DNA of 35,993 nucleotides, taken from assembly GCA_903863375.1 (NCBI GenBank), contig CAIPBT010000037.1, positions 1 through 35,993 of the forward strand, in the 5' to 3' direction. The notes below the pieces were generated by a model. The model was not told the origin of the DNA. It saw only the letters and a list, made by a program, of their open reading frames with translations, and did not search any database. A program made the position numbers and the translations under genes. Positions 1,028 to 35,993 of this stretch are shown one piece after another. Origin of the DNA: an uncultured Ferrovum sp. Lineage in GTDB: Bacteria > Pseudomonadota > Gammaproteobacteria > Burkholderiales > Ferrovaceae. Numbering within the stretch: position 1 is the stretch's first letter; each line of letters starts with the position of its first letter.

Positions 1028-2548
1028 TCAGTTCAATTCCTTGAGCAGATCGCGGGCTTTGGCCTCGTTGGCAAACGGGGCCTTCAGGGCGAGGATCGCT
1101 TCCAGCTCGCTCTTGGCCTTGGCTTTTTCGTTGACCGCCAACAGTCCACGCGCATAGTCGTAGCGCACATCCGCATTGGTCGGGGCATGCTGGGCCGCTT
1201 CGCGCAGCAGGCCGAGCCCGCGCTCATTCTGCTTGCCCTCGGACATCAGGATCACGCCCAAGGTGTTGGCCGTGGCCACGCTGTCGGGCTTCAGTTTGTG
1301 CGCCTTTTCAGCGTACTCCAGCGCGCCGGGGTCCTTCATCAGCTCCAGGGTCTGGGCAAGATCCAGCAAGGCCTGCAGGTTGTTGGCATCTTTGGCCAGG
1401 ATCGCCTTGTACTGGACCACTGCGGCCGGATAGTCCTTCGCGCGGCCAGCGCTGGCGGCGGCATAAAAGCGCAGACGCATGTCATCGCCATGGGTATCCA
1501 CCCACGCCTTCAGGCGTTTCGCAGCCTCGTCGGTCTGGCCGTCCGCCAGCAAGGCCTGATGCAACTGCACCAGCAGCTCGGTGGCTGGCTGTTTGTCGAG
1601 GGCGGCCTTCAGGGCCGTCACGGCCTCCTTCGGATGCTTCTGCGCCATGGCAATCTGGGCCTTCAACGACAGCACCACGGCCTGGTTGGGCAGAATGGTT
1701 TCCAGCCGCGCTTCATAACCCGCCGCCTCATCCGGCTTGCCGGCATGCAGCGCGAACTGGGCGGACGCCAACAACGGCTCGGCCTGGTTGGGCTTGGCCT
1801 TGCGTGCCTTTTCCAACCAGCTGGCGGCGCTGGCGTTGCGGTTGGCATCGGCTTCAATGCCGGCCAGTCCGAGCATGGCGTCGATGTCGTCGGGTTGCAG
1901 CTTGAGCAGCGCCTGCAGCTGGCGGGATGCCTCGTCAAACTTGCGCTGGGCAAAGGCCAGGCGGGCAGCCAGCTGGTGGGCCGGAATATTGTTCGGTTCG
2001 GCCTTCAGCGCCTTTTCCACCGAATGGTTGGCCGACTCGAAGTCGGAACTGGCGGCGGCAATCTGAGCGGCGAGCAGGTAGGCCTGCACATCCACCGGCG
2101 TGCGTTTGAGCACCGGCTCCAGGGTCTCAAGCGCGTGGGCACCATCGCCTTTCTGCATCAGGGCGCTGGCGTAAACCTTGCGCGCCATCAGGTTGTCCGG
2201 ATTGTCGGTGACCGCCTGCTTGAGATGGGCGAGTGCTGCATCCAGCTTGCCCATCGCGCCCTCGAGCGTGCCGGCCAGCAGCAGGGCAGGTACCGATTTC
2301 GGGTGCTTTTTCAACACCTCTTCCACCTTCGCCAGGGCCGCTGGAATTTCTCCCTTGGCTCTCAGTTCCTCGGCTGCCTTGAGCTGTTGGTCAACCTCGG
2401 CGTTGGCCGATGCCGACGTACTGCCGGGCAGGCTGAGCTTGCCGCCCGGCGTGTTGACAGGATCAGCCGCCAAAAGAAGCGGACTGGTGGCCAGCAACGC
2501 ACTCGCAACGAGCAGGACGGCAGGACGGACAGAAAGGCGCAGATTCAC
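1028..2548 (-). CDS. Secreted TPR-repeat protein
   Basis: 506 residues starting at a GTG. An N-terminal Sec signal peptide is visible (RPAVLLVASALLATSPLLLA, likely cut before ADP), so the protein is probably periplasmic. There is no lipobox cysteine. The rest is Ala/Leu/Lys-rich helical repeats of about 34 residues with TPR signatures (for example the repeats around PDNLMARKVYASALMQKGD and PDDIDAMLGLAGIEADANR), running to the C-terminus. TPR arrays bind proteins or peptides. The layout resembles the TPR protein PrsT of exosortase/PEP-CTERM loci, but it is shorter and no exosortase gene is in the window, so that link is only a suggestion. It lies 138 bases downstream of ntrX on the same strand and may have its own promoter in that gap. 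Confident on TPR and export, unsure of role. Confidence 0.85.
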   Translation of the reverse strand: MNLRLSVRPAVLLVASALLATSPLLLAADPVNTPGGKLSLPGSTSASANAEVDQQLKAAEELRAKGEIPAALAKVEEVLKKHPKSVPALLLAGTLEGAMGKLDAALAHLKQAVTDNPDNLMARKVYASALMQKGDGAHALETLEPVLKRTPVDVQAYLLAAQIAAASSDFESANHSVEKALKAEPNNIPAHQLAARLAFAQRKFDEASRQLQALLKLQPDDIDAMLGLAGIEADANRNASAASWLEKARKAKPNQAEPLLASAQFALHAGKPDEAAGYEARLETILPNQAVVLSLKAQIAMAQKHPKEAVTALKAALDKQPATELLVQLHQALLADGQTDEAAKRLKAWVDTHGDDMRLRFYAAASAGRAKDYPAAVVQYKAILAKDANNLQALLDLAQTLELMKDPGALEYAEKAHKLKPDSVATANTLGVILMSEGKQNERGLGLLREAAQHAPTNADVRYDYARGLLAVNEKAKAKSELEAILALKAPFANEAKARDLLKELN

Positions 2549-2686: not shown

Positions 2687-3952
2687 TCAAACCGGATCCT
2701 CGCGACCGGATGGACGGATGCCAAGCTGCTTGAGCTTGCGGTACAGATGGGTGCGCTCCAGACCGACGCGCTCGGCCACCCGCGACATGTTCCCGCTTTC
2801 GCGGCGGATGTGATATTCGAAATAGGCCTGTTCGAACTGATCGCGCGCTTCGCGCAGGGGCCGGTTGAATTCCATCACCACCTGGTTGGCCGCCGCCGGC
2901 CGGGTGAACTGGGCGGCGATGCGCTGCACGTCAGCCTGGGTGATTTCCTGGTCGAGAGCCGCCAGCGCCAGGGTACGCACGGCGTTCGCGAGCGCCGGCA
3001 GATTGCCGGGCCAATTGAGGCTGCGCAAGGCATTCAGCGCCCCACTCGACAGGGCACGCACCGGTACTTCCTTGCCCTCGATCAGCTGCTGCAGCATCAC
3101 GGTGGCAATCTCGGGAATGTCTTCGGCGTGATCGCGCAGGGCCGGCACCGGCAGCACCAGCTGGGACAGGCGGTTGAGCAGTTCGGCGTCGAAGTGATGA
3201 TCGGCGACCAGGCTGGCCGGGGTCTGGCTGGAGGCGGTGACGAGGCGCACGTTGTGGCGCTCCAGCTTGGTCAGCAGCTGGGCCAGGCCGCGCTGGGCGG
3301 CACGGTCGAACTGGGCGATGTCCTGCAGGAACAACATGCCGTCCTGCACGTCGGGCAGCACCGAATAGGGGTTTTCCGCCAGCCACGCCACGTCATCCGG
3401 GGCGACCCAGGGCGTGTTGGGGCGATGCAGGTAACGGGCAGCCAGATCGGCGCCGCAGCCCGGTTCGCCCACCAGCAGCAGGGGCTGTGGGCGGTTTACC
3501 AGCAGATCGAGGCGTTTGCGCAGGTCGACGATCACGGCCGATTTGCCGAGATGGCCCAGGTTCAGCCCAGGCCGGAAATCGGCGCGACCCTTGGCCAGGG
3601 CGCGCTCCACCGTGGCGAGCAGGCGTGGCAGGGCGATCGGCTTCTCAAGGAAATCGACAGCGCCGATACGGGTGGCTTCCACCGCTGTCTCGATGGTGCC
3701 GTGCCCCGACATCATCACCACCGGCATGGTTAGCATGCCCGTGCTGGCCCACTCCTTCAACAGGGTGATGCCATCCATTTCCGGCATCCAGATGTCAAGC
3801 AGGACCAGATCCGGACGGGCGTGCCGGCGCGCTTCGCGCGCCACCAGCGCGTTGGCCGCGAGGCGGACGCGATACCCTTCCTCGCTCAGGATTTCCGAGA
3901 GCAATTCGCGGATGCCGACCTCATCGTCCACCACCAGGATTTCCTGACTCAA
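2687..3952 (-). CDS. ntrX: NtrX-type response regulator with degenerate AAA+ domain
   Basis: 421 residues. I chose the TTG at 3952-3950 because AGGAG sits 7 bases upstream and the receiver domain begins right there (SQEILVVDDE). Receiver domain at about 4-120 with Asp9/Asp10, phospho-acceptor Asp53 and Lys104. The central AAA+ domain (about 135-330) is degenerate: the Walker A position reads GEPGCGAD (162-169) without its lysine, the Walker B position reads LFLQDI instead of LFLDEI, the sensor II segment reads WPGNLPAL instead of WPGNVREL, and about two dozen residues including the GAFTGA loop are missing. The C-terminus (about 380-421) is a Fis-type helix-turn-helix typical of NtrX. The likely role is partner of NtrY, acting as a DNA-binding regulator independent of sigma-54 (inference). 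An upstream start near 4018 is possible but has no comparable ribosome binding site. Confidence 0.9.
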   Translation of the reverse strand: MSQEILVVDDEVGIRELLSEILSEEGYRVRLAANALVAREARRHARPDLVLLDIWMPEMDGITLLKEWASTGMLTMPVVMMSGHGTIETAVEATRIGAVDFLEKPIALPRLLATVERALAKGRADFRPGLNLGHLGKSAVIVDLRKRLDLLVNRPQPLLLVGEPGCGADLAARYLHRPNTPWVAPDDVAWLAENPYSVLPDVQDGMLFLQDIAQFDRAAQRGLAQLLTKLERHNVRLVTASSQTPASLVADHHFDAELLNRLSQLVLPVPALRDHAEDIPEIATVMLQQLIEGKEVPVRALSSGALNALRSLNWPGNLPALANAVRTLALAALDQEITQADVQRIAAQFTRPAAANQVVMEFNRPLREARDQFEQAYFEYHIRRESGNMSRVAERVGLERTHLYRKLKQLGIRPSGREDPV

Positions 3953-4020
3953 ACCTGTACTCCTCGATTGCGACCGGTACCACACGCCCACCAGGGCAGA
4001 CCTGCTGCGCCAAGCCACGG

Positions 4021-4044
4021 CCTCATGCGCATGACCTCATGCGC
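4021..4044. repeat. Palindrome and direct repeat at the ntrY stop codon
   Basis: Positions 4027-4044 form a perfect inverted repeat (GCGCATGA, 2-base spacer, TCATGCGC). The same stretch contains a 10-base direct repeat CCTCATGCGC at 4021-4030 and 4035-4044. The ntrY stop codon (4039-4037) lies inside the palindrome, in front of the 84-base ntrY-ntrX gap. It could be an operator-like protein site or an mRNA stem affecting expression of ntrX; the sequence alone cannot decide. Confidence 0.45.
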
Positions 4045-6211
4045 TGTCTTCCGCCAACGGCAGGGTGATGCTGACGTGCCCGCCCCCCTGATCCTCGTTG
4101 CGCGCCTGCACGCGCCCGCCATGCTCTTCGATGATCTTCTTGACGATGGCGAGCCCCAGACCAGTCCCTTTCGACTTGCTGGTGACATAGGGTTCGAACA
4201 CCCGTGGCAGCAGCTGGTCGGGAAAGCCCAGGCCATTGTCCAGCACGCGCAGGCGCGCGCCGTCGCCGCGCTGTTCGGTCCGCACCGTGATGCGCGGATC
4301 CGGCTGGCCCTGCAACGCATCGACCGCGTTCTGCAGCAGATTGTGCAGCACCTGACGGATCAGGTTGCCATCGCCGCGTACCCGGGGCAAGTCGGGATCG
4401 AGGGCCAGATCGAGCGTCACTCCGGTGCCTTCGTACAGGTGCAGCACTTCGCGCACCAGCGCGTTCAGATCCAGGCTGCGCGCCACCACGCCCGAGGCCC
4501 GGGCATAGGCACTGAAATCGTCGACCATTGCCTTCATGGCATCCACCTGGTTGACGATGGTGGCCGTCGACCGTTCCAGCAGGGCGGCGTCGGCCTCATC
4601 CAACCGGGGCGTGAGGCGGCGCTGCACCCGCTCGGCCGCGAGCTGGATGGGGGTAAGCGGATTCTTGATCTCGTGCGCCAGCCGACGGGCAACCTCGGCC
4701 CAGGCAGCATCGCGTTGCGCCTGCAGCAGGCCGGTGATGTCATCGAACACCACCATGGCATCGGCATCCGGGCCGCCGGGCAGGCGGCGGCCCCGTAGAT
4801 GCAGCACGCGCAGGCCATCCTCGGTCACGTAATCCAGCTGCGCGTCCCAGGCGGCATCCTCCGGATCCGGTTCCTGCCCGGTCTGGCGCAGACGCTGCCC
4901 CAGCAGTCCGGCGAACGCACGCAGGCCCTCGCCCACCGGCGAGCCCGCCAGCTCGGCCAGACTGCGGCCGGGCAGGGCCAGCTCGAGCTGCAGCAGGTCG
5001 TAGGCGGCCGGATTGGTGGCCACCACCGTCTGGTGGCGGTCGATCACCACCACCCCGGTGCTGAGATTGGCCAGGATACCTTCCAGATAGGTCTTGGCGG
5101 CCTCGAGCTGGGCCTGGTCGCGGGCACGCGACGAGGCCGCTGTCTGCAGCTGGCGGATCATGGTGTTGAAGGCCTGTGCCAGCACCCCGAGCTCATCCCG
5201 GGTGGTGACATTGGCCAGACGGGTAAAGTCTCCCCGTCCCACCGCCAGGGCCGCTTCGGCCAGCTGTCCCAACGCCACCCCAAGATACTCGGACAGGGAA
5301 AACGCCAGGGCAAGGGCCGACAGCAGGGTGAGCAGCAGGGTCAGGGTCAGGGTCAGGCCATAAACCCGCTTCAGGCCAACCCGCGCCCGGGTAAGCTCCT
5401 GATAGCTGCGCCAGGCCGAATCCACGCGTTCGGCGTTGGCCGACAGCTCCGCCGGCACCGGCTGCAACAGCTCGAGGGCGCGCAGGTCTTCGTTGATCGA
5501 CAGCAGGTTGACCGGCACCACCACGCGCAGGAAGAAGCCCTTGCCCGGCACCGATTCGATGCTCTTGTAGGTGCGTTGCAGCCGCACCTGCCGCAGGGCC
5601 GCCATGTGCGGCAGGCCGGCACCGGGAAACAGGGCGGTGCTGCGCGAACTGGAAAAGGCCAGCATCTTCCCGGTCTTGTTGTACAGGCTCACCTCATCCA
5701 CGCCGTTTTGCTCGCGCAGGTGATTGAGCAGCACCACCTCATCGATGGCGGTGCTGTCGGCCATCGAAACCGCCATGGCCTCGCCCTTCAGGGCGAGGTC
5801 GCCGAGCAGGCTGTCCAGGCTGGTCCGCCCAAGATTGAGACCCGCTTCCAGCGCCTGATCGACGTTCACGTTGAACCAGGTTTCGATGCTGTTGGCGAGA
5901 AACTGCACGGAAACGGCGTATACCAGGGTGCCGGGCACCAGGGCTGCCACACCGAACACCATCAGCAGGCGCAAGGTGAGGCGCGAGCCGAACTGGCGCG
6001 CCCGGATGCGCCGGTAGAGGGTATGCACCTGGTAGGCAATCAGACCGACCAGGCCAATCGCCAGACAGAATCCCAGCAGCAGCAGGGCGGTGTAATTCTC
6101 GGCAAACAGCGAGGTATTGGCCGTGGCCTGGAACAGCAGGTAGAGCAGTACGCCGCCCAGCAGCAGGCATGCCCCAAGCAGCGCGCGGACGCGCCAGCTT
6201 GCAAAGATCAT
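4037..6211 (-). CDS. ntrY: NtrY-type membrane sensor histidine kinase
   Basis: 724 residues, starting at the ATG whose last bases overlap the stop codon of the DUF4390 gene (ATGA), which suggests translational coupling. Order of domains: hydrophobic segments near the N-terminus (two close together around residues 10-65, another near 80-110), a periplasmic sensor region, a membrane segment at about 285-310, HAMP, PAS (about 385-480), then the kinase core. The phospho-acceptor is His513 in RRLAHEIKNPL; the ATP-binding lobe shows the N box (HNLLQNAVDAL), DNGLGFP and GTGLGLAI. It should autophosphorylate and pass phosphate to NtrX, encoded just downstream. NtrY/NtrX systems elsewhere are linked to nitrogen or redox/respiratory control; the ligand here is unknown. 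A start 15 codons further upstream is possible but would lie within the DUF4390 gene. Confidence 0.95.
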   Translation of the reverse strand: MIFASWRVRALLGACLLLGGVLLYLLFQATANTSLFAENYTALLLLGFCLAIGLVGLIAYQVHTLYRRIRARQFGSRLTLRLLMVFGVAALVPGTLVYAVSVQFLANSIETWFNVNVDQALEAGLNLGRTSLDSLLGDLALKGEAMAVSMADSTAIDEVVLLNHLREQNGVDEVSLYNKTGKMLAFSSSRSTALFPGAGLPHMAALRQVRLQRTYKSIESVPGKGFFLRVVVPVNLLSINEDLRALELLQPVPAELSANAERVDSAWRSYQELTRARVGLKRVYGLTLTLTLLLTLLSALALAFSLSEYLGVALGQLAEAALAVGRGDFTRLANVTTRDELGVLAQAFNTMIRQLQTAASSRARDQAQLEAAKTYLEGILANLSTGVVVIDRHQTVVATNPAAYDLLQLELALPGRSLAELAGSPVGEGLRAFAGLLGQRLRQTGQEPDPEDAAWDAQLDYVTEDGLRVLHLRGRRLPGGPDADAMVVFDDITGLLQAQRDAAWAEVARRLAHEIKNPLTPIQLAAERVQRRLTPRLDEADAALLERSTATIVNQVDAMKAMVDDFSAYARASGVVARSLDLNALVREVLHLYEGTGVTLDLALDPDLPRVRGDGNLIRQVLHNLLQNAVDALQGQPDPRITVRTEQRGDGARLRVLDNGLGFPDQLLPRVFEPYVTSKSKGTGLGLAIVKKIIEEHGGRVQARNEDQGGGHVSITLPLAEDSA

Positions 6212-6843
6212 CCGGGTGTCACCGCGAAGCGGTGGATGGGAGACGACAGCTGCCACTCGCGCGACGACAAGGTCTCGATCTGCAGCGGCTTGGGCAACTG
6301 CGAGGTATCGAGGTGCAGACCAACGCTGGCCTCGTAGTGCATGCCCTTGCGCAACGGGATGCGCTCGCCGGAGGGCATCACATGCACATGGGTGAGGGCG
6401 CGTAGGGCCTCATGCAGATCGGGGAAAGTTTCGTAGGCGTTGCCGATGTTGAGCCGGTACATGCGGGTGATCGGAACATAGCTCAGCCGGCGATGCTCGT
6501 GCAGGCTGGTGAGGGTTTCGTCAAACCACCACGCGCGTGGCCGCCACAGCTCGAAATCCATCACGAAATCGAGCGTGACACCGTGTGACACGGCGTCCTG
6601 CAAGGTTGGTGTCAGTTCCAGATCGAAATTGGCGTCCAGCAGATAGCCATCTTCCACCGCTTCCAGTTCGACGTTGCGCACGGTGATGCCATCGGCCCGC
6701 GCCGTGGCAGGGTTCAGCAGCAGCGCCAGCAGCATCGCAACGTGGCAACAGCCCCGGCGGCCCCCCCGGGCGAGCTGGCCAGCACGGCGGGATCGGTGGT
6801 CACGACGCCCGGCGGTCGAATCGTGCGTAGAAGAAACCGTCAT
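6208..6843 (-). CDS. DUF4390 exported protein upstream of ntrY
   Basis: 211 residues from the ATG at 6843, overlapping the 3' end of rsmB by 44 bases; its stop overlaps the ntrY start. A hydrophobic stretch (AMLLALLLNPATARA, cleavage before DG) preceded by an arginine-rich region suggests an exported protein. An alternative ATG at 6735 would give 175 residues but leave almost no positively charged region before the hydrophobic core. Neither start has a good ribosome binding site. The mature part (ITVRNVELEAVEDGYLLDAN, later ELWRPRAWWFDE) matches what is expected of DUF4390, a family commonly found between rsmB and ntrY in betaproteobacteria. Function unknown; position suggests it works with NtrY in the envelope. 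A run of seven C (6761-6767) lies between the two candidate starts. Confidence 0.8.
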   Translation of the reverse strand: MTVSSTHDSTAGRRDHRSRRAGQLARGGRRGCCHVAMLLALLLNPATARADGITVRNVELEAVEDGYLLDANFDLELTPTLQDAVSHGVTLDFVMDFELWRPRAWWFDETLTSLHEHRRLSYVPITRMYRLNIGNAYETFPDLHEALRALTHVHVMPSGERIPLRKGMHYEASVGLHLDTSQLPKPLQIETLSSREWQLSSPIHRFAVTPG

Positions 6844-8140
6844 GCAGTTCGTCAGGCAAAACCCAGGCATCGGTAAACGCAGGACCGGAAAGCGGAATGG
6901 GGAGGGCATCGGGATGGTCAGCCAGAAAAGTCTGCACGAATCCGGGGCCCTCTTCGGCAAACAGGGAACACGTGACGTAAAGCAATGTACCACCGGGCTT
7001 GAGGGTACGCCAAAGCGCCGCCCCCAGGGCACGCTGGGTGGCGGCCAGCCGGGCAGGGTCGCTCGAATGGCGCAGCCAGCGGATGTCGGGGTGCCGCCGG
7101 GTAACGCCTGAGCCGGTGCACGGGGCATCGAGCAGGATGCGGTCGAATGGCCGGCCGTCCCACCAGGCATCCAGATCGGCGGCATCGGCACGGCGCAGGG
7201 TGGCTTGCAGACCAAGCCGCTGCAGGGTCTGCTCGACCCGATTGAGCCGTTGCGCGTCGTGATCCAGCGCCACCAGGTCGAGTCCGTCGGTATGTTCGAG
7301 CAGATGGGCAGTCTTGCCGCCGGGTGCCGCACAGGCGTCCAGCACCCGCTGCCCGGCCTGCGCGTTCAGGAGCGTGGCGGCCAGTTGCGCCGAGGCATCC
7401 TGCACCGACACGCAGCCGTCGGCAAAACCGGGCAGCCGCTCGACGGGGCAGGGCGTCAGCAGCCGGATGGCAGCCGCCTGTCCGTCGTTGACCACCTCGG
7501 CGGCAAGGCCGGCAGCGGCCAGCCGTTCGAGGTAGGCGGTGCGGGACTGCCGACGCAAATTCACGCGCAGCGTGAACGGCGGGTGCTGCTGGCCGGCCAG
7601 CAGGATGTCACGCCAGGCAGCGGGATGGTCGCGGCGTAGCCGGCGGATCCACCACTCCGGATGGGAAAAGCGTCCTTCGGGCGTGGCGTCGGCCGCCCGC
7701 TCCAGCTCGGGCAGGGTGCGCTGCAGGGAGCGCAGCACCGCGTTGACGAAGCCCCCCACAGCCGGATGGGTGAGCGCCGACGCCGCCCGCACGGCATGGT
7801 CGACCACCGCATGTGGCGCCGTTCGGGTATGCACTAGCTGGTAAGCGCCCACTTCAAGCAGGATGCCCACAATCGGCTGGGTTTCCTTTTTCAGCAGGGG
7901 TCGCAGCAAGGCTTTCAGCCGCCCATGATGGCGCAACACCCCAAAGCACAGGTCGCGGCAGACCGCACGCACATGACGCCCGAGGGCCACCAGTTCGGCA
8001 TCGTGCTGGGTCAGTACCGCATCCAGACTGCGCCCGCCGAGCACATCCAGCAGGATGCCGGCGGCGCGGGCCTGGGCCAGGTCCAGACGGGAGGCATCAC
8101 CATCGGCCTGGCTGTCAGACCCCTCCCGTGATTCAGTCAT
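6800..8140 (-). CDS. rsmB: 16S rRNA (cytosine-967-C5)-methyltransferase RsmB
   Basis: 446 residues, beginning at the ATG four bases after the fmt stop. The N-terminal part (about 15-150) is the NusB-like RNA-binding domain. The C-terminal part is the SAM-dependent methyltransferase, with the SAM motif VLDACAAPGGKT, Cys341 in DAPCTGSG and the second cysteine Cys391 in VTCSLF, the two cysteines typical of RNA m5C methyltransferases. The enzyme methylates C967 of 16S rRNA in the cytoplasm, using S-adenosylmethionine. The order def-fmt-rsmB is conserved in many proteobacteria, and the close spacing implies one transcript from def. Its 3' end overlaps the next gene. Confidence 0.96.
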   Translation of the reverse strand: MTESREGSDSQADGDASRLDLAQARAAGILLDVLGGRSLDAVLTQHDAELVALGRHVRAVCRDLCFGVLRHHGRLKALLRPLLKKETQPIVGILLEVGAYQLVHTRTAPHAVVDHAVRAASALTHPAVGGFVNAVLRSLQRTLPELERAADATPEGRFSHPEWWIRRLRRDHPAAWRDILLAGQQHPPFTLRVNLRRQSRTAYLERLAAAGLAAEVVNDGQAAAIRLLTPCPVERLPGFADGCVSVQDASAQLAATLLNAQAGQRVLDACAAPGGKTAHLLEHTDGLDLVALDHDAQRLNRVEQTLQRLGLQATLRRADAADLDAWWDGRPFDRILLDAPCTGSGVTRRHPDIRWLRHSSDPARLAATQRALGAALWRTLKPGGTLLYVTCSLFAEEGPGFVQTFLADHPDALPIPLSGPAFTDAWVLPDELHDGFFYARFDRRAS

Positions 8141-16919: not shown

Positions 16920-19900
16920 TTACAGCAGCCGACGCAGCAGCGCGGCGGCCGCCGTAAAGTCGAGGTGATCGAGGTGGTGCCGCAACACGGTCAGCAGGCG
17001 CTCCGGCAGCCGCTGCAGCAGTGACGCCGGCAGGTTGGAAAATTCCTCGAGCGCACTCAGGTCGCGGGCTTCCAGCGACGCAGCAAGGGTAAACAGCAAC
17101 GCCCTGGCGTCTGACGGAAGGGCAGGTACAGCTTCCCAATCCTCCGCCAGCAAGACGCCAGGACCCGCGATTGCCGTTGGTGTACCAGGCTTGCGGTCGA
17201 TGGCCACGGGCGCCCCTGGCCACGCAGCCGCAGCCGTCTCGGCCGGCTGACCACCCGGTTCGCCCGTTGCACTGAGCTCCGCCAGGGCGACATGCAGCGC
17301 ATCGCGTTGCCGGTCACACGACCCGCGTAACTGCAGCAAGGATTCGCGCAGCCGCTGTGGCAAGCCGGCCTCCAGCAAGGCAGCCGGCCCCGGCAGTTGC
17401 TCAAACAGGGGCTCGAGCAGCGAGGCCAGCCGGTGCACTTCGGTGCAGGCGACCATGCCGGCAGCCCCTTTCAACCGGTGCACAGCCCGTCGCAGGGGCT
17501 CGGCATCCACACCGGCACCGGTGGTCTGCCCGAGCATCTGCACCGCGCGCTCCAGTTCGGCATCGAACAGTCGCAGGGAACGCAAGTAAAGTGTGGAATC
17601 CCCCGCCATGCGCCGGAAGGCAACTGCCATGTCGTGACCAGAGACGTCGGGAAAGCCTTGCGCGCGCGCGCGCGCGAGGGTGCTGATCCAGTTCAGGTCT
17701 TCGTGACTATCCGGTTGGCTGCCCGTGCCGGCAAAATCCGCCGGGCGGATCGAGCGCTGGCGCAGGGCACGCAGCACGACACCGACCATTTCGTGCAGGT
17801 CGAATGGTTTGGCAATGAAATCGTCCATGCCGGCGGCTCGGGCGGCCTCGCGCTGGGCCGGCAGGGTGCCCGCCGACAGCGCCAGGATCGTAAGATCGTC
17901 CGCCCGCGGCAGCAGGCGGATATGGCGCGCCAGGGTCAGGCCGTCCATGTCCGGCATCTGCACATCGAGCAGCAGCACGGTGGGCCAGACCAGACCGTGC
18001 TGCAGCAGGTGCAGGGCTTGTTGTCCGCCGGCGGCGGTCTGCACCAGGGCGCCGGCCCGGGTGAGCAGCCGGGCTGCCACCTCGAGGTTGACCGGGGTGT
18101 CGTCGACGATCAGCACGCGCTGACCGATCAGAGCCCCGACCGGATCTGCCGGTTGATCCACGTCTGCGGGCAGGTGGGTGCGCGCCTCGCTGGTCTGGAA
18201 GGGCAGTTCCAGCCAGAAGGTGCTGCCCAACCCAGGCGTGCTGTCGGCGCCAACGCGTCCGCCCAGCAGGGCAGCAAGCTCCCGGCTGATGGCGAGGCCC
18301 AGGCCGGTGCCGGAGTTGCGCGCGAGACTCGGTTCATCGAGCTGAGTGAACGCATCAAACACCCGTTGCAGGTCTTCCGGTGGGATGCCAGTGCCGGTGT
18401 CGGCCACCTCAAAGCGCAGGCGTAGCTCGCGCCCCTGGGCAACCGGCAGTCGCACAACCCGCAGACGGACTTCGCCAACGGCGGTGAACTTGATGGCGTT
18501 GCTGACGAAATTGGTCAGGATCTGGGTGACCCGCTGACTGTCGCCAATCAGCACGGCCGGCAGTTCTGGCAGCCCGTCGACGCTCAGGCGCAGACCCTTC
18601 TGTTCGGCGCTGGGCGACCACAGCTGCACCAGATGCGCCAACAGCTGGCCGACGGCAAAGGCCTGCGATTCCACTTCCAGTCGGCCGGCCTCGATCTTGG
18701 CGAAATCGAGCACATCATTGACCAGGTCAAGCAAGGAATGGCCGGCGGCCGCAATGGTTTCCACCAACCGGCGCTGATCGGGGTCGAGACGCTCGTCCTT
18801 CAACACTTCGGCCATCCCCATGATGGCGTTGAGCGGATTGCGAATCTCGTGGGACATGCTGGCCAGAAAGGCCCCTTTGACCTTGTTTGCCTCTTCGGCG
18901 ATGCGTTTGTCCTCCCGCAGCCGGAACTCCTCCGTGCGATAGGCGGTGATGTCGTCAAACATCAGCAGCAGGCGGCGCTCTTCGTGCAGGCTGAACGGCA
19001 CCAGATCGATTTCCACCCAATGGCTTTCGCCATTGGCCAGGCGCAGCTCGCATTCCACGCGCTGGGGCTGCATCTGCCGCAGGGCCTGTTCCACCGCCGG
19101 CCGAAATCCCGTGGCATGCCAGGCCGGCAGGTGATACAGATTGCCCTGCAGCAGGGTGGTGCGCGGCACATTGAGCAGATAGGCCGCCACCTCGTTGACG
19201 AGCAGGCAGGTGCCGTCGTGGCGGAACAGTGCCATGCCCTGGGTGGAGGACTCGATCAGGCGCTGATTGATGTCGGCGATTTCCTGCACGCGCGCCGCCG
19301 TTTCGTGACGGCTGCTGACATCGACGAACGTGGCCAGATAGCCATATTCGAGCGAGACCGCCGAGATTTCCATGGTCAGGACGCGGCCGTCGCTGCGGGT
19401 CACGCGTTGCTCGGCCGTCGCCCGATGCATGCCGCCATTGGTCTTGCCCTGCAGACCGATCCAGATCCGCACCGCTTCGCGACGATAGTCGGGGTCGGGA
19501 TAGGCGAGCTGCCACCATTCGGCCAGTCCGGGCACCTGGGCCGGGACATAGCCGAAGGTGGCCCAGAATCGCTCGTTGGCGATGGCCAGGGCGCCGTCGT
19601 TGTCGAAAACGCACATCGGAATCGGCGCGTTGCGGATGAACTCGCCCAGGCGGCGGCGGGCCTCTTCGGCCTCGTGGACGCGGATCTCGACCAAGGCCTC
19701 CATCTTCTCGCGGTAGCGACGCACCTCCTGTTCCGCGCGCCGCCGCTCGGTGACATCGATGAAGGTTACCAGCACAGCAGGCAGACCTTGCACCAGTCCC
19801 AGCGGTGCCGCGCTGACTTCCAGCCAGCGCAGGGTGCCATCGGGCGCAATGTCGCCTAGCAGCTGGCGGGACACCGAGATGCCCTGCAGCAGGGCCCGGT

Positions 19901-20225
19901 TGACCGGCGACTCGGCCAGGGGAAGGCGCTCGCCGTCCGGTCGCAGGATGATCCACTCGTCCGGCGCTTCCCGCGCACTAAAGGTGCGTCCCAGCATATG
20001 TTCGGCCGTCGTGTTCCAGAACAGCATGCGGCGCCCGACCGAAAAGATCAGCACCCCTTCATCCAGCGAATCGACGATCCGCCGGAAATAGCGGTCAAAC
20101 GTGGCGGGCTTCAGCGCCCCGGCAACCGCCCCCGTGTCGCGATGACCCAGGGCACGCTGCCAACGCAACAGGTCTTCATTCAAGCGCGATGTCCATCTGA
20201 CGGGTTCGCGTCTGGTTGCGCCCAC
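16920..20225 (-). CDS. Cytoplasmic hybrid histidine kinase (PAS-PAS-PAS-HisKA-HATPase-REC-HPt)
   Basis: 1101 residues if read from the GTG at 20225; a TTG at 20183 is an alternative, and neither has a strong ribosome binding site. Three PAS domains are at about 45-165, 195-310 and 320-435. The HisKA phospho-acceptor is His459 (ASMSHEIRNPLNAI), followed by the ATP-binding lobe (NFVSNAIKFT, DTGTGIP, GTGLGLAI). A receiver domain follows with Asp754 (LLLDVQMPDMDG) and an HPt domain with His916 (VHRLKGAAG). No membrane segments are visible, so sensing is probably intracellular. The 5' end overlaps the diguanylate cyclase gene, suggesting phosphorelay towards that receiver. An alternating GC tract of 17 bases lies at 17660-17676 inside the gene. 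Confidence 0.93.
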   Translation of the reverse strand: MGATRREPVRWTSRLNEDLLRWQRALGHRDTGAVAGALKPATFDRYFRRIVDSLDEGVLIFSVGRRMLFWNTTAEHMLGRTFSAREAPDEWIILRPDGERLPLAESPVNRALLQGISVSRQLLGDIAPDGTLRWLEVSAAPLGLVQGLPAVLVTFIDVTERRRAEQEVRRYREKMEALVEIRVHEAEEARRRLGEFIRNAPIPMCVFDNDGALAIANERFWATFGYVPAQVPGLAEWWQLAYPDPDYRREAVRIWIGLQGKTNGGMHRATAEQRVTRSDGRVLTMEISAVSLEYGYLATFVDVSSRHETAARVQEIADINQRLIESSTQGMALFRHDGTCLLVNEVAAYLLNVPRTTLLQGNLYHLPAWHATGFRPAVEQALRQMQPQRVECELRLANGESHWVEIDLVPFSLHEERRLLLMFDDITAYRTEEFRLREDKRIAEEANKVKGAFLASMSHEIRNPLNAIMGMAEVLKDERLDPDQRRLVETIAAAGHSLLDLVNDVLDFAKIEAGRLEVESQAFAVGQLLAHLVQLWSPSAEQKGLRLSVDGLPELPAVLIGDSQRVTQILTNFVSNAIKFTAVGEVRLRVVRLPVAQGRELRLRFEVADTGTGIPPEDLQRVFDAFTQLDEPSLARNSGTGLGLAISRELAALLGGRVGADSTPGLGSTFWLELPFQTSEARTHLPADVDQPADPVGALIGQRVLIVDDTPVNLEVAARLLTRAGALVQTAAGGQQALHLLQHGLVWPTVLLLDVQMPDMDGLTLARHIRLLPRADDLTILALSAGTLPAQREAARAAGMDDFIAKPFDLHEMVGVVLRALRQRSIRPADFAGTGSQPDSHEDLNWISTLARARAQGFPDVSGHDMAVAFRRMAGDSTLYLRSLRLFDAELERAVQMLGQTTGAGVDAEPLRRAVHRLKGAAGMVACTEVHRLASLLEPLFEQLPGPAALLEAGLPQRLRESLLQLRGSCDRQRDALHVALAELSATGEPGGQPAETAAAAWPGAPVAIDRKPGTPTAIAGPGVLLAEDWEAVPALPSDARALLFTLAASLEARDLSALEEFSNLPASLLQRLPERLLTVLRHHLDHLDFTAAAALLRRLL

Positions 20226-21183
20226 CGGCTTTCGCCTGATACAGCGCCAGGTCGGCCGCCGTGACCAGGCTGGAACTGGCCAGCGGCAACAACGGGGCGC
20301 ACTCGCTGACGCGGCTCGCCGTCAGGCTGGGCATCAGGCTGGCCAGCAGCGGGCCATCCGGTTCCAGGGCGCTGGCACCCACGCTGATGGTGAGCCGCCC
20401 CCCCTGGCCCGCGGCCCGATGCTGGATGTTGCGGTCGTACAGGGTCTGATGCAGCCGTTCGGCCACCACCACCGCCTGTTCAAGCGAGGTATGCGGCAAC
20501 AGCAGGGCAAACTCCTCACCGCCATAGCGGGCGGGCTGATCACTCGCCCGCTGCGCGACATGCTGCAGCACCTGGGCCACCTGGCGCAGGCACGCATCGC
20601 CCTGCTGATGCCCATAAGCATCGTTGAACGCCTTGAACTGGTCAACGTCCACCATCAGCAGGGCCAGCGGGATGTTGTTGCGCAGCGAGCGCTTCCATTC
20701 CCGTTCCAGGGCCAGATCAAACAGGCGCCGGTTGGCAAGACCAGTCAGCTCATCGGTGTGAGTCAGACGCAGCAGTTCGTCGGTACGCCGCTTCAGGGCG
20801 AGGTGGGTCTCCATCCGGGCGCGGGCGACGGGCGGATTGAATGGCTTGATGATGAAGTCGTTCGCTCCGATCGCCAGGGCACGGGCTTCCCGGGTAGGGT
20901 TGCCATGCGCGGTGATGAAAATGATCGGCAGTTCGGCCGGCTCGAGATGCTGGCGCAGGGCGGCACAGGTTTCCTCGCCACTGATGCCGGGCAGCTCCAT
21001 GTCGAGCAGGATCAGGTCGGGACGCTCGGTGCGCACCATGCGCAAGGCATCTTCGCCGGACAGGCAGAACCGCACCCGGCCAAGTCCGCGTGACAGGCTG
21101 TTGAGCTGATGCACGGAGGCCGGATCGTCGTCCACGATCAGGATCACTGGGGCGCCGGCATCGATGGGCAAGTGGTCGTTCAT
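20176..21183 (-). CDS. Response-regulator diguanylate cyclase (REC-GGDEF)
   Basis: 335 residues. Receiver domain at about 13-125 with Asp18-20, phospho-acceptor Asp61 (LLDMELPGISG) and Lys113; GGDEF domain at about 140-330 with an intact active site GGEEF (221-225). The inhibitory I-site RxxD is present as RASD (212-215), exactly five residues before GGEEF, so the enzyme should be active and feedback-inhibited by cyclic di-GMP. It makes cyclic di-GMP from two GTP when phosphorylated. The ATG has AAGG just upstream. It overlaps the hybrid kinase gene by up to 50 bases and is the first gene of the pair, making the kinase the natural phosphate donor. Divergent from pirin, with 132 bases between. 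Confidence 0.94.
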   Translation of the reverse strand: MNDHLPIDAGAPVILIVDDDPASVHQLNSLSRGLGRVRFCLSGEDALRMVRTERPDLILLDMELPGISGEETCAALRQHLEPAELPIIFITAHGNPTREARALAIGANDFIIKPFNPPVARARMETHLALKRRTDELLRLTHTDELTGLANRRLFDLALEREWKRSLRNNIPLALLMVDVDQFKAFNDAYGHQQGDACLRQVAQVLQHVAQRASDQPARYGGEEFALLLPHTSLEQAVVVAERLHQTLYDRNIQHRAAGQGGRLTISVGASALEPDGPLLASLMPSLTASRVSECAPLLPLASSSLVTAADLALYQAKAGGRNQTRTRQMDIALE

Positions 21184-27137: not shown

Positions 27138-29777
27138 ATGATGGATCAACGTTCATCAGACCACGGACGACTGCCCGCTTCGGTTCGCCAACGCGCGGAG
27201 CAGCCGACCACGGCAGATGGCCAGGCGCCGGTGCGCATTGTGGGCATCGGGGCCTCGGCGGGCGGCCTCGAGCCCCTGCTTGAGTTTCTCGCCCAGGTGC
27301 CGGTGGCCAGCGGTCTGGCCTATATCGTGGTGCAGCACCTCGACCCGACGCGGAGAGCCCTGCTACCCGAGATCCTGCAACGCGCCACAACCATGCCCGT
27401 GCGCGAGGTGTCTTCGTGGATGCGCATCACGGCCAATTCCGTCTATGTGATTCCGCCCAATGCCGAGCTGACCGTCGTGAACGGCATGATCCGACTGTCA
27501 GAACCCAGCGAGCCGCGCGGCCTACGCCTGCCAGTCGATGTGCTGTTCTGTTCGCTGGCGCGCGAACAGGCCGAACATGCCATCGGGGTGGTGCTGTCCG
27601 GCATGGGGACCGACGGCACCCTGGGCATGCAGGCCATCAAATCGCAAGGAGGACTGACGGTCGCGCAGACCCCGGATTCGGCACGGTATGGCTCGATGCC
27701 CCGCACCGCCGTGGCGTCGGGCATGGTGGACATGATCGGTGCTGTCGCCGATCTGCCGCGCCGGATCCTGGCAGTGGTCGCTTCGCAACAGGAACAAGAA
27801 CAAGGACAAGGACAGGGCAGGCCAGAGACGGTCGGCAGCGCGGCACCGCCAGAAGACACGGGAGACGTGCACGCCCCCCTGGCCGCCATCCTGGAATTGC
27901 TGCGCATCCACAGCCGATATGATCTGGCGCTGTACAAGCCCAGCACGCTGCGGCGCCGGATTGAACGGCGGATGGCCATCCATGGCCTGAGCCGGATGGC
28001 CGACTACGCGGCGTATCTGGCGGCGAACAGCGCGGAGCTTGCCCTGCTGTTCAAGGAAATGCTGATCGGTGTGACCGGTTTTTTCCGCGATCCGGAGGTT
28101 TGGGACATCTTGCGGGATTTGGTGTGGCCCGAGCTGTTTGCCCGCAGCGAGCCGGGTCGGCATTTCCGGGCCTGGGTGCCGGGATGTTCCACGGGCGAGG
28201 AAGCGTTCACGCTCGCCATGGTGTTTCAGGAAGCGCTGACCCGATGGGTCGATCCGACCGCGTTCTCCTTGCAGGTGTTTGCCACCGATCTGAATGCCGA
28301 CGCGATCGCGGCGGCTCGCCGGGGCCGGTATGGCGCGACCATGATGGCCGGATTGGGGCAGGATCGTCTGGCCCGGTTTTTCCGGATCGATGGGGCGGAC
28401 TACGTGGTCGATCCCGGCATTCGGGAAATGGTGCTGTTCGCCCAGCATGATGTGAACATGGACCCCCCATTCACCCGGCTGGACCTGTTGTCCTGCCGCA
28501 ACCTGCTGATCTATTTCAGTGCCACCTTGCAGAAACGGCTGATGCCGCTGTTCCATTACAGTCTGGTGCCGGGCGGCATTCTGGTGCTCGGCGAATCGGA
28601 AACGGTAGGCGGCGCCCACAACCTGTTTCGACCCTTGTCACCCACGGTGCGGCTGTATCGGCGCGATGCGCAGGATACTGCCACCAGCGCCGTTCATTTT
28701 CCGGTCAACCGTCGCAGCGTCGTACCCCCCCACCCGCAGGAGCAAGCCATGTCCCGACAGCCGCCAAATGCGGTCAACCTGCAGGTGCTGGCCGACCAGC
28801 TGCTGCTGCAGCGGTTCTGTCCGGCCGCCGTGCTGGTGAATGAACTGGGGGACATCCTGTACATCAATGGCCGCACCGGCGCTTATCTGGAGCCAGCGGC
28901 GGGGCGCGCCAACTGGAACGTGCATGTCATGGCGCGGGCGGAAATCCGCGCGCCGCTGGCGATTGCCATGCGTAAGGCGATCGGCGAACGGGTACCGGTA
29001 ACCGTGCAAGGCATACCACTGGAAGACACCGGCAAAAGCAGGCTCGACCTGCTGGTGGAATCGGTCGATGCGCCCAGCACGGTGGAGCGCATGGTGATGA
29101 TTGTGTTCCGGGAAGTGCCGGCCGGTGCCGGCCGGCGACCGCGGCGCAACGTCGCCGTGAACGATCTCGACACGTCGCCCGCTGTCGAACTGCTGCGCGC
29201 GCAAGAAGACATTGCCGCCCTGCGCGCGGCCATGCGTACCGCCGAGGAAGACCGGCAGGCGGCCATCGAAGAGCTGCAATCCACCAACGAGGAGCTGCAG
29301 TCAGCCAATGAAGAGCTGACCACCTCGAAGGAAGAAGCCCAGTCGATGAACGAAGAACTGCAGACCATCAACGCCGAACTGCGCTGCAAGCTGGATGACC
29401 TCGCCCTGGCGCAGAGCGACATGCAGAACCTGCTCAACAGCACCGACATCGCCACCCTGTTTCTGGACAAGGACCTGAACGTGCGGCGATTCACGGAAAA
29501 GATCAAACGCATCATTCACCTGCGCGATGCGGATGTCGGGCGTCCGCTCAGTGATCTGGCCACCACGCTGGACTATGGCGATTTCCGCATCGATGCCATG
29601 GAGACCTTGCGCACGCTGGTGTTCTGCGAAAAGGAAGTCTCGACGAACGATGGGCACTGGTTCAAAGTGCGCATCATGCCGTACCGCACCGTGAGCAATG
29701 TGATTCAGGGCGCGGTGATCACCTTTGTCGACATCACGGCCGCCAAGGAACTCGAATCCCGGTTGCGAAAAGCCTGA
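27138..29777 (+). CDS. CheB-CheR-coiled coil-PAS fusion signalling protein
   Basis: 879 residues from the ATG at 27138 (a second ATG follows directly). The CheB methylesterase domain (about 33-215) keeps its catalytic triad: Ser40 (GASAGG), His67 (VVQHLDP) and Asp159 (SGMGTDG). A Gln/Glu-rich linker (216-228) leads to the CheR methyltransferase (about 245-510) with the SAM motif WVPGCSTGEEAF and the LLSCRNLLIYF segment. A PAS-like region (about 545-665) follows, then a coiled coil (about 680-765, AIEELQSTNEELQSANEEL type heptads) and a C-terminal PAS (about 770-875). No kinase or GGDEF domain follows, although many relatives have one, so it probably signals through partners. No receptor gene of the MCP type is in the window. 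A PAS-only gene lies 76 bases downstream. Likely acts on protein methylation; target unknown. Confidence 0.94.
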   Translation: MMDQRSSDHGRLPASVRQRAEQPTTADGQAPVRIVGIGASAGGLEPLLEFLAQVPVASGLAYIVVQHLDPTRRALLPEILQRATTMPVREVSSWMRITANSVYVIPPNAELTVVNGMIRLSEPSEPRGLRLPVDVLFCSLAREQAEHAIGVVLSGMGTDGTLGMQAIKSQGGLTVAQTPDSARYGSMPRTAVASGMVDMIGAVADLPRRILAVVASQQEQEQGQGQGRPETVGSAAPPEDTGDVHAPLAAILELLRIHSRYDLALYKPSTLRRRIERRMAIHGLSRMADYAAYLAANSAELALLFKEMLIGVTGFFRDPEVWDILRDLVWPELFARSEPGRHFRAWVPGCSTGEEAFTLAMVFQEALTRWVDPTAFSLQVFATDLNADAIAAARRGRYGATMMAGLGQDRLARFFRIDGADYVVDPGIREMVLFAQHDVNMDPPFTRLDLLSCRNLLIYFSATLQKRLMPLFHYSLVPGGILVLGESETVGGAHNLFRPLSPTVRLYRRDAQDTATSAVHFPVNRRSVVPPHPQEQAMSRQPPNAVNLQVLADQLLLQRFCPAAVLVNELGDILYINGRTGAYLEPAAGRANWNVHVMARAEIRAPLAIAMRKAIGERVPVTVQGIPLEDTGKSRLDLLVESVDAPSTVERMVMIVFREVPAGAGRRPRRNVAVNDLDTSPAVELLRAQEDIAALRAAMRTAEEDRQAAIEELQSTNEELQSANEELTTSKEEAQSMNEELQTINAELRCKLDDLALAQSDMQNLLNSTDIATLFLDKDLNVRRFTEKIKRIIHLRDADVGRPLSDLATTLDYGDFRIDAMETLRTLVFCEKEVSTNDGHWFKVRIMPYRTVSNVIQGAVITFVDITAAKELESRLRKA

Positions 29778-32772: not shown

Positions 32773-35993
<3,221 letters not shown>

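Follow-up and report, generated by a model that had tools for sequence, protein, structure and literature searches.

The response regulator NtrX encoded in the DNA analyzed here carries a central AAA+ domain that has lost its sigma-54-contact loop and nearly all of its catalytic motifs. It is a typical representative of a known group, the betaproteobacterial (beta) NtrX of the PlrR type, in which the AAA+ domain has very probably turned into a non-catalytic structural module within a dimer that works at ordinary promoters. What we add is a family-wide series of such states. The window, i.e., the whole stretch that was analyzed, comprises 35,993 nt from an uncultured Ferrovum sp. (GCA_903863375.1, contig CAIPBT010000037.1, positions 1–35,993, forward strand).

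Results

Gene, domains and genetic neighborhood

The ntrX gene and its domains lie in the window as follows.

2687..3952, minus strand: ntrX, beta type, 421 aa (ORF translation, Pfam, orthologues)
3593..3946, minus strand: receiver domain, NtrX residues 3–120, with D9, D10, D53, S82 and K104 (Pfam PF00072, invariant residues)
2909..3550, minus strand: degenerate AAA+ domain, NtrX residues 135–348 (PF14532, PF25601, motif census, AlphaFold2 model, kinship to 3co5)
2720..2860, minus strand: Fis-type DNA-binding domain, NtrX residues 365–411, with recognition helix ERTHLYRK (PF02954, conservation)

The gene starts with TTG (3952); the open frame also offers a GTG at 4018 as an alternative start. 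Both Pfam and the model gave the domain order receiver, AAA+ and Fis-type helix-turn-helix (HTH) that is typical of sigma-54-dependent enhancer-binding proteins. Response_reg, Sigma54_activ_2 (6.6e-38), AAA_lid_14 and HTH_8 were all found above their Pfam cut-offs. Sigma54_activ_2 (PF14532) matched residues 135–272 over its full profile with 130.5 bits (curated cut-off 25), and part of the Sigma54_activat profile was matched with 32.5 bits (cut-off 20.2). The best-scoring family was the NCBIfam equivalog model for NtrX, NF051870, with 270 bits; its curated cut-off of 600, which the window protein missed, was passed by 40 of 150 genomes of the phylum among the matches listed. The RegA/PrrA/ActR family consists of a receiver and a Fis-type HTH without a central domain and has a RegB-type kinase as partner. 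We do not place the window NtrX there, because it has a central domain and an NtrY-type kinase gene upstream.

Three genes upstream belong to a conserved cluster.

4037..6256, minus strand: ntrY (plrS type), sensor kinase, presumed NtrX partner, directly upstream of ntrX (NtrY_N (weak), HAMP, PAS, HisKA, HATPase_c)
6208..7332, minus strand: DUF4390 ORF, corresponding to Bordetella plrP (PF14334, 6.7e-44; PMC13001219)
6800..8263, minus strand: rsmB, 16S rRNA methyltransferase, first gene of the cluster (PF01189, PF01029; PMC13001219)

The order rsmB-plrP-plrS-plrR is reported for beta and gamma NtrYX systems (PMC13001219), and the window likewise has rsmB and the DUF4390 (plrP) gene upstream. 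The DUF4390 match covers only residues 213–369 of its ORF, and the true start of this gene probably lies inside the ORF. Over all groups studied here, 268 of 277 NtrX loci have an NtrY-type kinase gene immediately upstream, some genomes being counted twice.

Elsewhere in the window, a TPR-repeat protein (506 aa, 1028–2548, minus strand) is encoded downstream of ntrX on the same strand. A hybrid sensor kinase (1101 aa; several PAS, receiver, Hpt) adjoins a receiver-GGDEF diguanylate cyclase (16920–21183, minus strand), and 27138–29777 (plus strand) encodes a CheB-CheR-PAS fusion protein (879 aa). At the right end, gyrB and part of dnaN lie side by side (32773–35906, minus strand), and the region may therefore be near the replication origin.

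Catalytic and sigma-54-contact residues of the window NtrX

As a yardstick we used six sigma-54 activators with intact motifs from the same genome (L001–L006). All six have a GAFTGA-like loop (GSFTGA in L001) and the Walker A lysine within GE[ST]G[TS]GK, together with the Walker B DE, both arginine fingers and the sensor II arginine. Compared with these, the motif losses that a first-pass annotation had described for the window NtrX are all present. Walker A reads GEPGCGAD, without the lysine. At Walker B the Asp-Glu pair is absent, with LFLQDI in place of LFLDE. In sensor II a proline takes the place of the arginine (WPGNLPAL versus GN[VI]R). In addition, the first arginine-finger R is replaced by D (FDAELLNRL versus FRxDLxxRL), while the second is kept. 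Walker A and Walker B stand 48 residues apart, versus 71 in the genome's own activators, i.e., 23 residues including GAFTGA are missing, which agrees with the roughly two dozen residues annotated as lost. Walker B and the second arginine finger are 51 instead of 61 residues apart, so that ten more are gone. Hence, of the features of sigma-54-dependent enhancer-binding proteins, i.e., GAFTGA, Walker A lysine, Walker B Asp-Glu, arginine fingers and sensor II arginine, the window NtrX has only the second arginine-finger R.

The outer domains had been annotated as intact, and the receiver residues D9, D10, D53, S82 and K104 as well as the recognition helix ERTHLYRK are all there. We found no GAFTGA-like pattern anywhere in the window NtrX by regular expression or alignment. 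GAFTGA or Walker motifs conserved at shifted positions, an outcome that would speak against the annotation, were sought in the same way over all groups and not found. Moreover, the domain-less orthologues described below keep the receiver residues, almost without exception the recognition helix, and the kinase gene. The suggestion that this NtrX acts as a plain activator or repressor and not as a sigma-54 activator hence stands as far as sequences can tell. Sequencing error is an unlikely source of the degenerate domain, given the same architecture in four congeneric genomes at 72–83% identity among the matches listed.

The degenerate domain in sampled members of the order

We searched the window's genome and 60 relatives for NtrX. 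Among the matches listed, 51 of the 61 genomes have an NtrX with this central domain and seven have one without it; the three without NtrX (G013, G024, G027) are 57–76% complete. Eighty further loci from public genomes, with titles that include Chromobacterium, Nitrosomonas, Nitrosospira, Thiobacillus, Methylophilus, Neisseria and Snodgrassella, brought the sample to 131 beta NtrX with central domain, the window's included; the two sets may count one species twice. L007–L009 and L068 were left out of the group counts. The latter (G054:C29) is an additional NtrX-like regulator of a beta genome; it has Walker A GESGTGRE and gamma-like spacing, no ntrY was found upstream of it, and it is possibly a gamma-type paralogue.

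None of the 131 proteins has GAFTGA, the Walker A lysine or the first arginine finger. The Walker B D is found in eight and the sensor II arginine in one. The window's protein is one of 44 that retain the second arginine-finger R. Most of the proteins also retain the P-loop glycines (G165 in 99%, G162 in 87%, the third one in 98 of 131), and 125 have an acidic residue where the Walker B glutamate would stand. These remnants speak against a fully dead site, and weak binding of a nucleotide or another ligand is conceivable. The annotated loss thus holds as described, but not as a trait of one NtrX, since all sampled members of the order with the domain share it, and we reject a peculiarity of one genome or genus.

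A check for rpoN had been proposed together with the annotation. The gene is present in the window's genome, beside the six intact activators, and nothing therefore suggests a general loss of sigma-54 regulation. In total 59 of the 61 genomes have rpoN, and the two misses (G013, G024) are 70% and 76% complete. Loss of rpoN is hence rejected as cause, as the gene is found in the window genome and its relatives alike.

Receiver residues D9, D10, D53, S82 and K104 are invariant in all NtrX groups. Of the 131 beta NtrX with the domain, 130 have the helix ERTHLYRK, as do 40 of 47 gamma NtrX and 58 of 59 domain-less loci (some genomes counted twice; the exception is L273). Its core ERxxLxRK is present in 30/30 alpha, 46/47 gamma and 55/57 proteins of other families, and in none of the six non-NtrX activators of the window's genome.

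On contigs titled Bordetella parapertussis MAGs, four loci (L108, L109, L147, L158) encode an NtrX with a dead AAA+ domain. As Bordetella PlrR is said to consist of a receiver and a DNA-binding domain, these titles are probably wrong species labels.

Absence of the entire domain on three branches

We used a domain-less NtrX from G038 (P0002) as query in 250 genomes of the order. At least 55 gave an end-to-end match, one of them (G412) with an internal stop, and two gave no match. A further 16 are domain-less by length (203–269 aa from the receiver start), and NtrX without any central domain is thus found in at least 71 of the 250 genomes. In 24 examples, a low-complexity linker of variable length fills the place of the domain; the 'KLL' helix before the linker is kept nearly always and the 'REAR' motif at the HTH start mostly.

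On a tree of receiver, HTH and NtrY (98 rows, of which L064 and L260 are long; quick method, SH-aLRT only), domain absence required three changes, all forced by branches starred at ≥95. One of them is family f25, another is genus g281 of family f211, and the third is a large clade comprising eight families. Because the gamma outgroup has the domain, we read these absences as losses. They do not follow from loss of sigma-54, because rpoN is present in all seven genomes with domain-less NtrX among the 61. Within g281 the domain is kept in one of eight genomes (G583) and absent in seven; its loci are L278 with the dead AAA+ domain, and L261–L265, L277 and L285 without.

Selection and fold of the central domain

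Nei-Gojobori dN/dS within the genus was 0.054 for the receiver, 0.243 for the central domain and 0.047 for the HTH, rough values from 3–4 of 10 pairs, the rest being saturated. Within the family, equally rough values from 40–61 of 171 pairs were 0.064, 0.189 and 0.025, respectively. At a receiver identity of 0.7–0.8, central-domain identity was 66% in alpha, 57% in gamma and 41% in beta NtrX. The beta central domain is relaxed yet constrained, i.e., it is under purifying selection that is weaker than on the outer domains. As purifying selection acts on it, the domain does something where it is kept.

Modeling of the central domain had also been proposed as a check. An AlphaFold2 model from a 54-row alignment had a mean pLDDT of 87, and values exceeded 90 over most of the central domain. 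The modeled domain superimposed on the AAA+ domain of FlrC with Z 22.0 and an rmsd of 2.3 over 214 residues, and on NtrC1 with Z 21.7 and 2.5 over 214 residues. According to the model, the central domain is hence predicted to retain the AAA+ fold. The solved structure 3co5, which we take to be from a Neisseria species, resembles the NtrX central domain in sequence (E 5.7e-20 with the single sequence, 2.2e-32 with a profile); it was not among the best 50 matches of either fold search with the model.

NtrX outside the order

To NtrX from elsewhere we gave inferred labels. Of the proteins from the 40 genomes that passed the cut-off of the NtrX model, the 30 best-matching ones form the alpha group. 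Outside the order we obtained 113 matches, 47 of which, from other orders of the same class, form the gamma group. Both samples were chosen by NtrX similarity, which favors typical members. GAFTGA is absent from all 30 alpha proteins; the Walker A lysine, Walker B D, both arginine fingers and sensor II are present in 30/30 and the Walker B E in 29/30, so that the ATPase is intact in terms of residues, not of activity. In the gamma group we found GAFTGA in 0/47, the Walker A lysine in 38/47, the Walker B D in 17/47 and the sensor II R in 34/47.

We added 60 matches to the NtrX model below its cut-off and removed L293 (gamma) and L304 and L305 (NtrC-like). For 56 of the remaining 57 loci a kinase gene lies within the stretch. 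In family f52, from another class, each of the 35 loci encodes an NtrX with the Walker A lysine downstream of a kinase gene; their loops are GAFTGA (12), GAFPGA type (13), GAFAGA (4), GAFSGA (3), GAFVGA type (2) or none (1). The loci with GAFTGA and the Walker A lysine beside NtrY are L292, L294, L307, L308, L309, L311, L313, L314, L317, L318, L321 and L332. GAFTGA is found neither in the one f72 locus nor in 21 loci of other families, one of which has GAFPGA. Judged by its residues, an NtrX apparently fit for sigma-54 thus exists, nested among loop variants. The f52 sister genomes with GAFPGA, GAFAGA and GAFSGA are a possible natural series of sigma-54-contact loss. As these NtrX of another class carry GAFTGA and Walker A intact, it would be incorrect to deny all NtrX a role as sigma-54 activator.

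The GAFTGA state needs six changes on a further tree with outgroup and five without, a count that does not by itself tell retention from reversion. Beta NtrX is nested inside gamma with SH-aLRT 93, unstarred, on this tree from a quick method with two long outgroup rows.

Discussion

A probable plain regulator with a motor domain that looks dead

For the window NtrX we infer a protein without ATPase activity that is phosphorylated by NtrY and acts as a dimer at sigma-70 promoters. In this mechanism, NtrY (PlrS type) would phosphorylate D53, with the neighboring DUF4390 protein probably modulating the kinase. Phosphorylation would strengthen dimerization, and the paired Fis-type domains would bind DNA near ordinary (sigma-70 family) promoters. 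Activation would occur via contact to RNA polymerase, or repression by occlusion, and neither would involve ATP hydrolysis or contact to sigma-54. The central domain would be a spacer, a dimer scaffold or an inhibitory module, dispensable on an evolutionary time scale.

The central domain might instead bind a nucleotide or other ligand without hydrolysis and thereby gate dimerization or DNA binding. Its largely kept P-loop glycines, the acid at Walker B, the purifying selection and the AAA+ fold in the model are consistent with this, and there are precedents: NtrC of Rhodobacter capsulatus is described as binding ATP without hydrolysis (PMC10274813), and the related Brucella NtrX was crystallized with ATP and with ADP. 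However, the residues that hold phosphate and magnesium are gone in beta NtrX (Walker A lysine 0/131, Walker B D 8/131, sensor II R 1/131), whereas the alpha group keeps them in 29–30 of 30, and three lineages do without the domain altogether. We therefore consider ligand gating unlikely.

Much less probable still is a role as non-catalytic partner at sigma-54 promoters, e.g., as subunit of a mixed ring or as competitor for enhancer sites. It would find suitable company in a genome with rpoN and six intact activators, and the fold of the model would suit it; yet the protein has neither the sigma-54-touching loop nor the first arginine finger, and domain-less relatives keep the DNA-reading helix and the kinase gene, contrary to such a role. 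A decaying pseudogene we regard as practically untenable: central-domain dN/dS is four to five times that of the neighboring domains within the genus but still only 0.19–0.24 (0.03–0.06 in receiver and HTH), frame and architecture are kept in 130 sampled relatives, and ntrX is reported as putatively essential in Azoarcus olearius (PMC9769520).

Relation to known systems

The plain, non-catalytic NtrX that we favor shares the receiver, the Fis-type domain, the NtrY/PlrS kinase and the upstream DUF4390 and rsmB genes with the beta systems Bordetella PlrSR and Neisseria and Herbaspirillum NtrYX. PMC13001219 describes Bordetella PlrR as a receiver joined to a DNA-binding domain and working under PlrS, reports its phosphorylated form as essential and, citing Bonato 2016, has beta NtrX 'lack the AAA+ domain'. 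As worded there, this is too simple: unlike that description, the window NtrX and 130 sampled beta members keep a folded-looking, catalytically empty AAA+ domain.

The domain closest to it, 3co5 (PF14532), is likewise short. It too lacks the GAFTGA loop, and the alignment shows no Walker A lysine in it either. It is an isolated domain, with no name beyond putative response regulator. Our open-licence literature search found no published mention of 3CO5.

Alpha NtrX (Caulobacter, Brucella; PDB 5m7n, 5m7o, 5m7p) belongs to the orthologous family and also has no GAFTGA, as reported for the Caulobacter protein (PMC10274813). It keeps the ATPase residues, most of which the window NtrX lacks, and the structure titles give full-length Brucella NtrX with ATP and with ADP. 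NtrC of R. capsulatus and Caulobacter and VspR are without GAFTGA as well and are described as working at sigma-70 promoters (PMC10274813). There, ATP binding (R. capsulatus NtrC) or binding and hydrolysis (Caulobacter NtrC) is reported to be required (PMC10274813), in contrast to the degraded ATP site of the window NtrX. With the canonical sigma-54 activators NtrC, PspF, NtrC1 and FlrC, the window NtrX shares domain order and AAA+ fold but not the catalytic and sigma-54-contact motifs, the second arginine finger excepted.

Activation as well as repression of direct targets is on record for alpha NtrX. In Sinorhizobium it is reported to activate dnaA and ftsZ1 and to repress ctrA and gcrA (PMC9223101), and in Rhodobacter sphaeroides it is described as an activator and possibly a repressor (PMC7240162). 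A review citing earlier work refers to NtrX in 'four different classes' (PMC12697260), and part of the architecture series may already be in print in that four-class work. In the open-licence literature we found no description of the order-wide, catalytically empty but folded beta state, and neither the three deletions nor an NtrX that carries GAFTGA came up there. New here is the graded decay series, including a lineage with GAFTGA-bearing NtrX beside NtrY.

Implications

Domain-based annotation labels such proteins sigma-54-dependent, and regulon predictions follow. In a 2025 study of Acidithiobacillia, proteins were chosen by the presence of sigma-54 activator and receiver domains, and NtrX was placed in a sigma-54 network with NtrC-like interactions inferred (PMC12194929). 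For beta NtrX with a central domain, this domain rule fails in 131 of 131 sampled proteins.

NtrX may, as a tentative reading to which we give somewhat less than an even chance, be a fossil series from motor to plain switch, within one orthologous family and beside the same kinase type. Its stages would be loops fit for sigma-54 (f52), loss of the loop with ATPase residues intact (alpha), eroding residues (gamma), a dead ATPase with the fold kept (beta, as in the window) and deletion of the domain on three branches (beta). Close relatives with and without the dead domain, as in genus g281, are natural experiments. If the series is true, such sister genomes would show the role of the dead domain, and the promoters of one regulon would have switched sigma factor while the helix core ERxxLxRK stayed.
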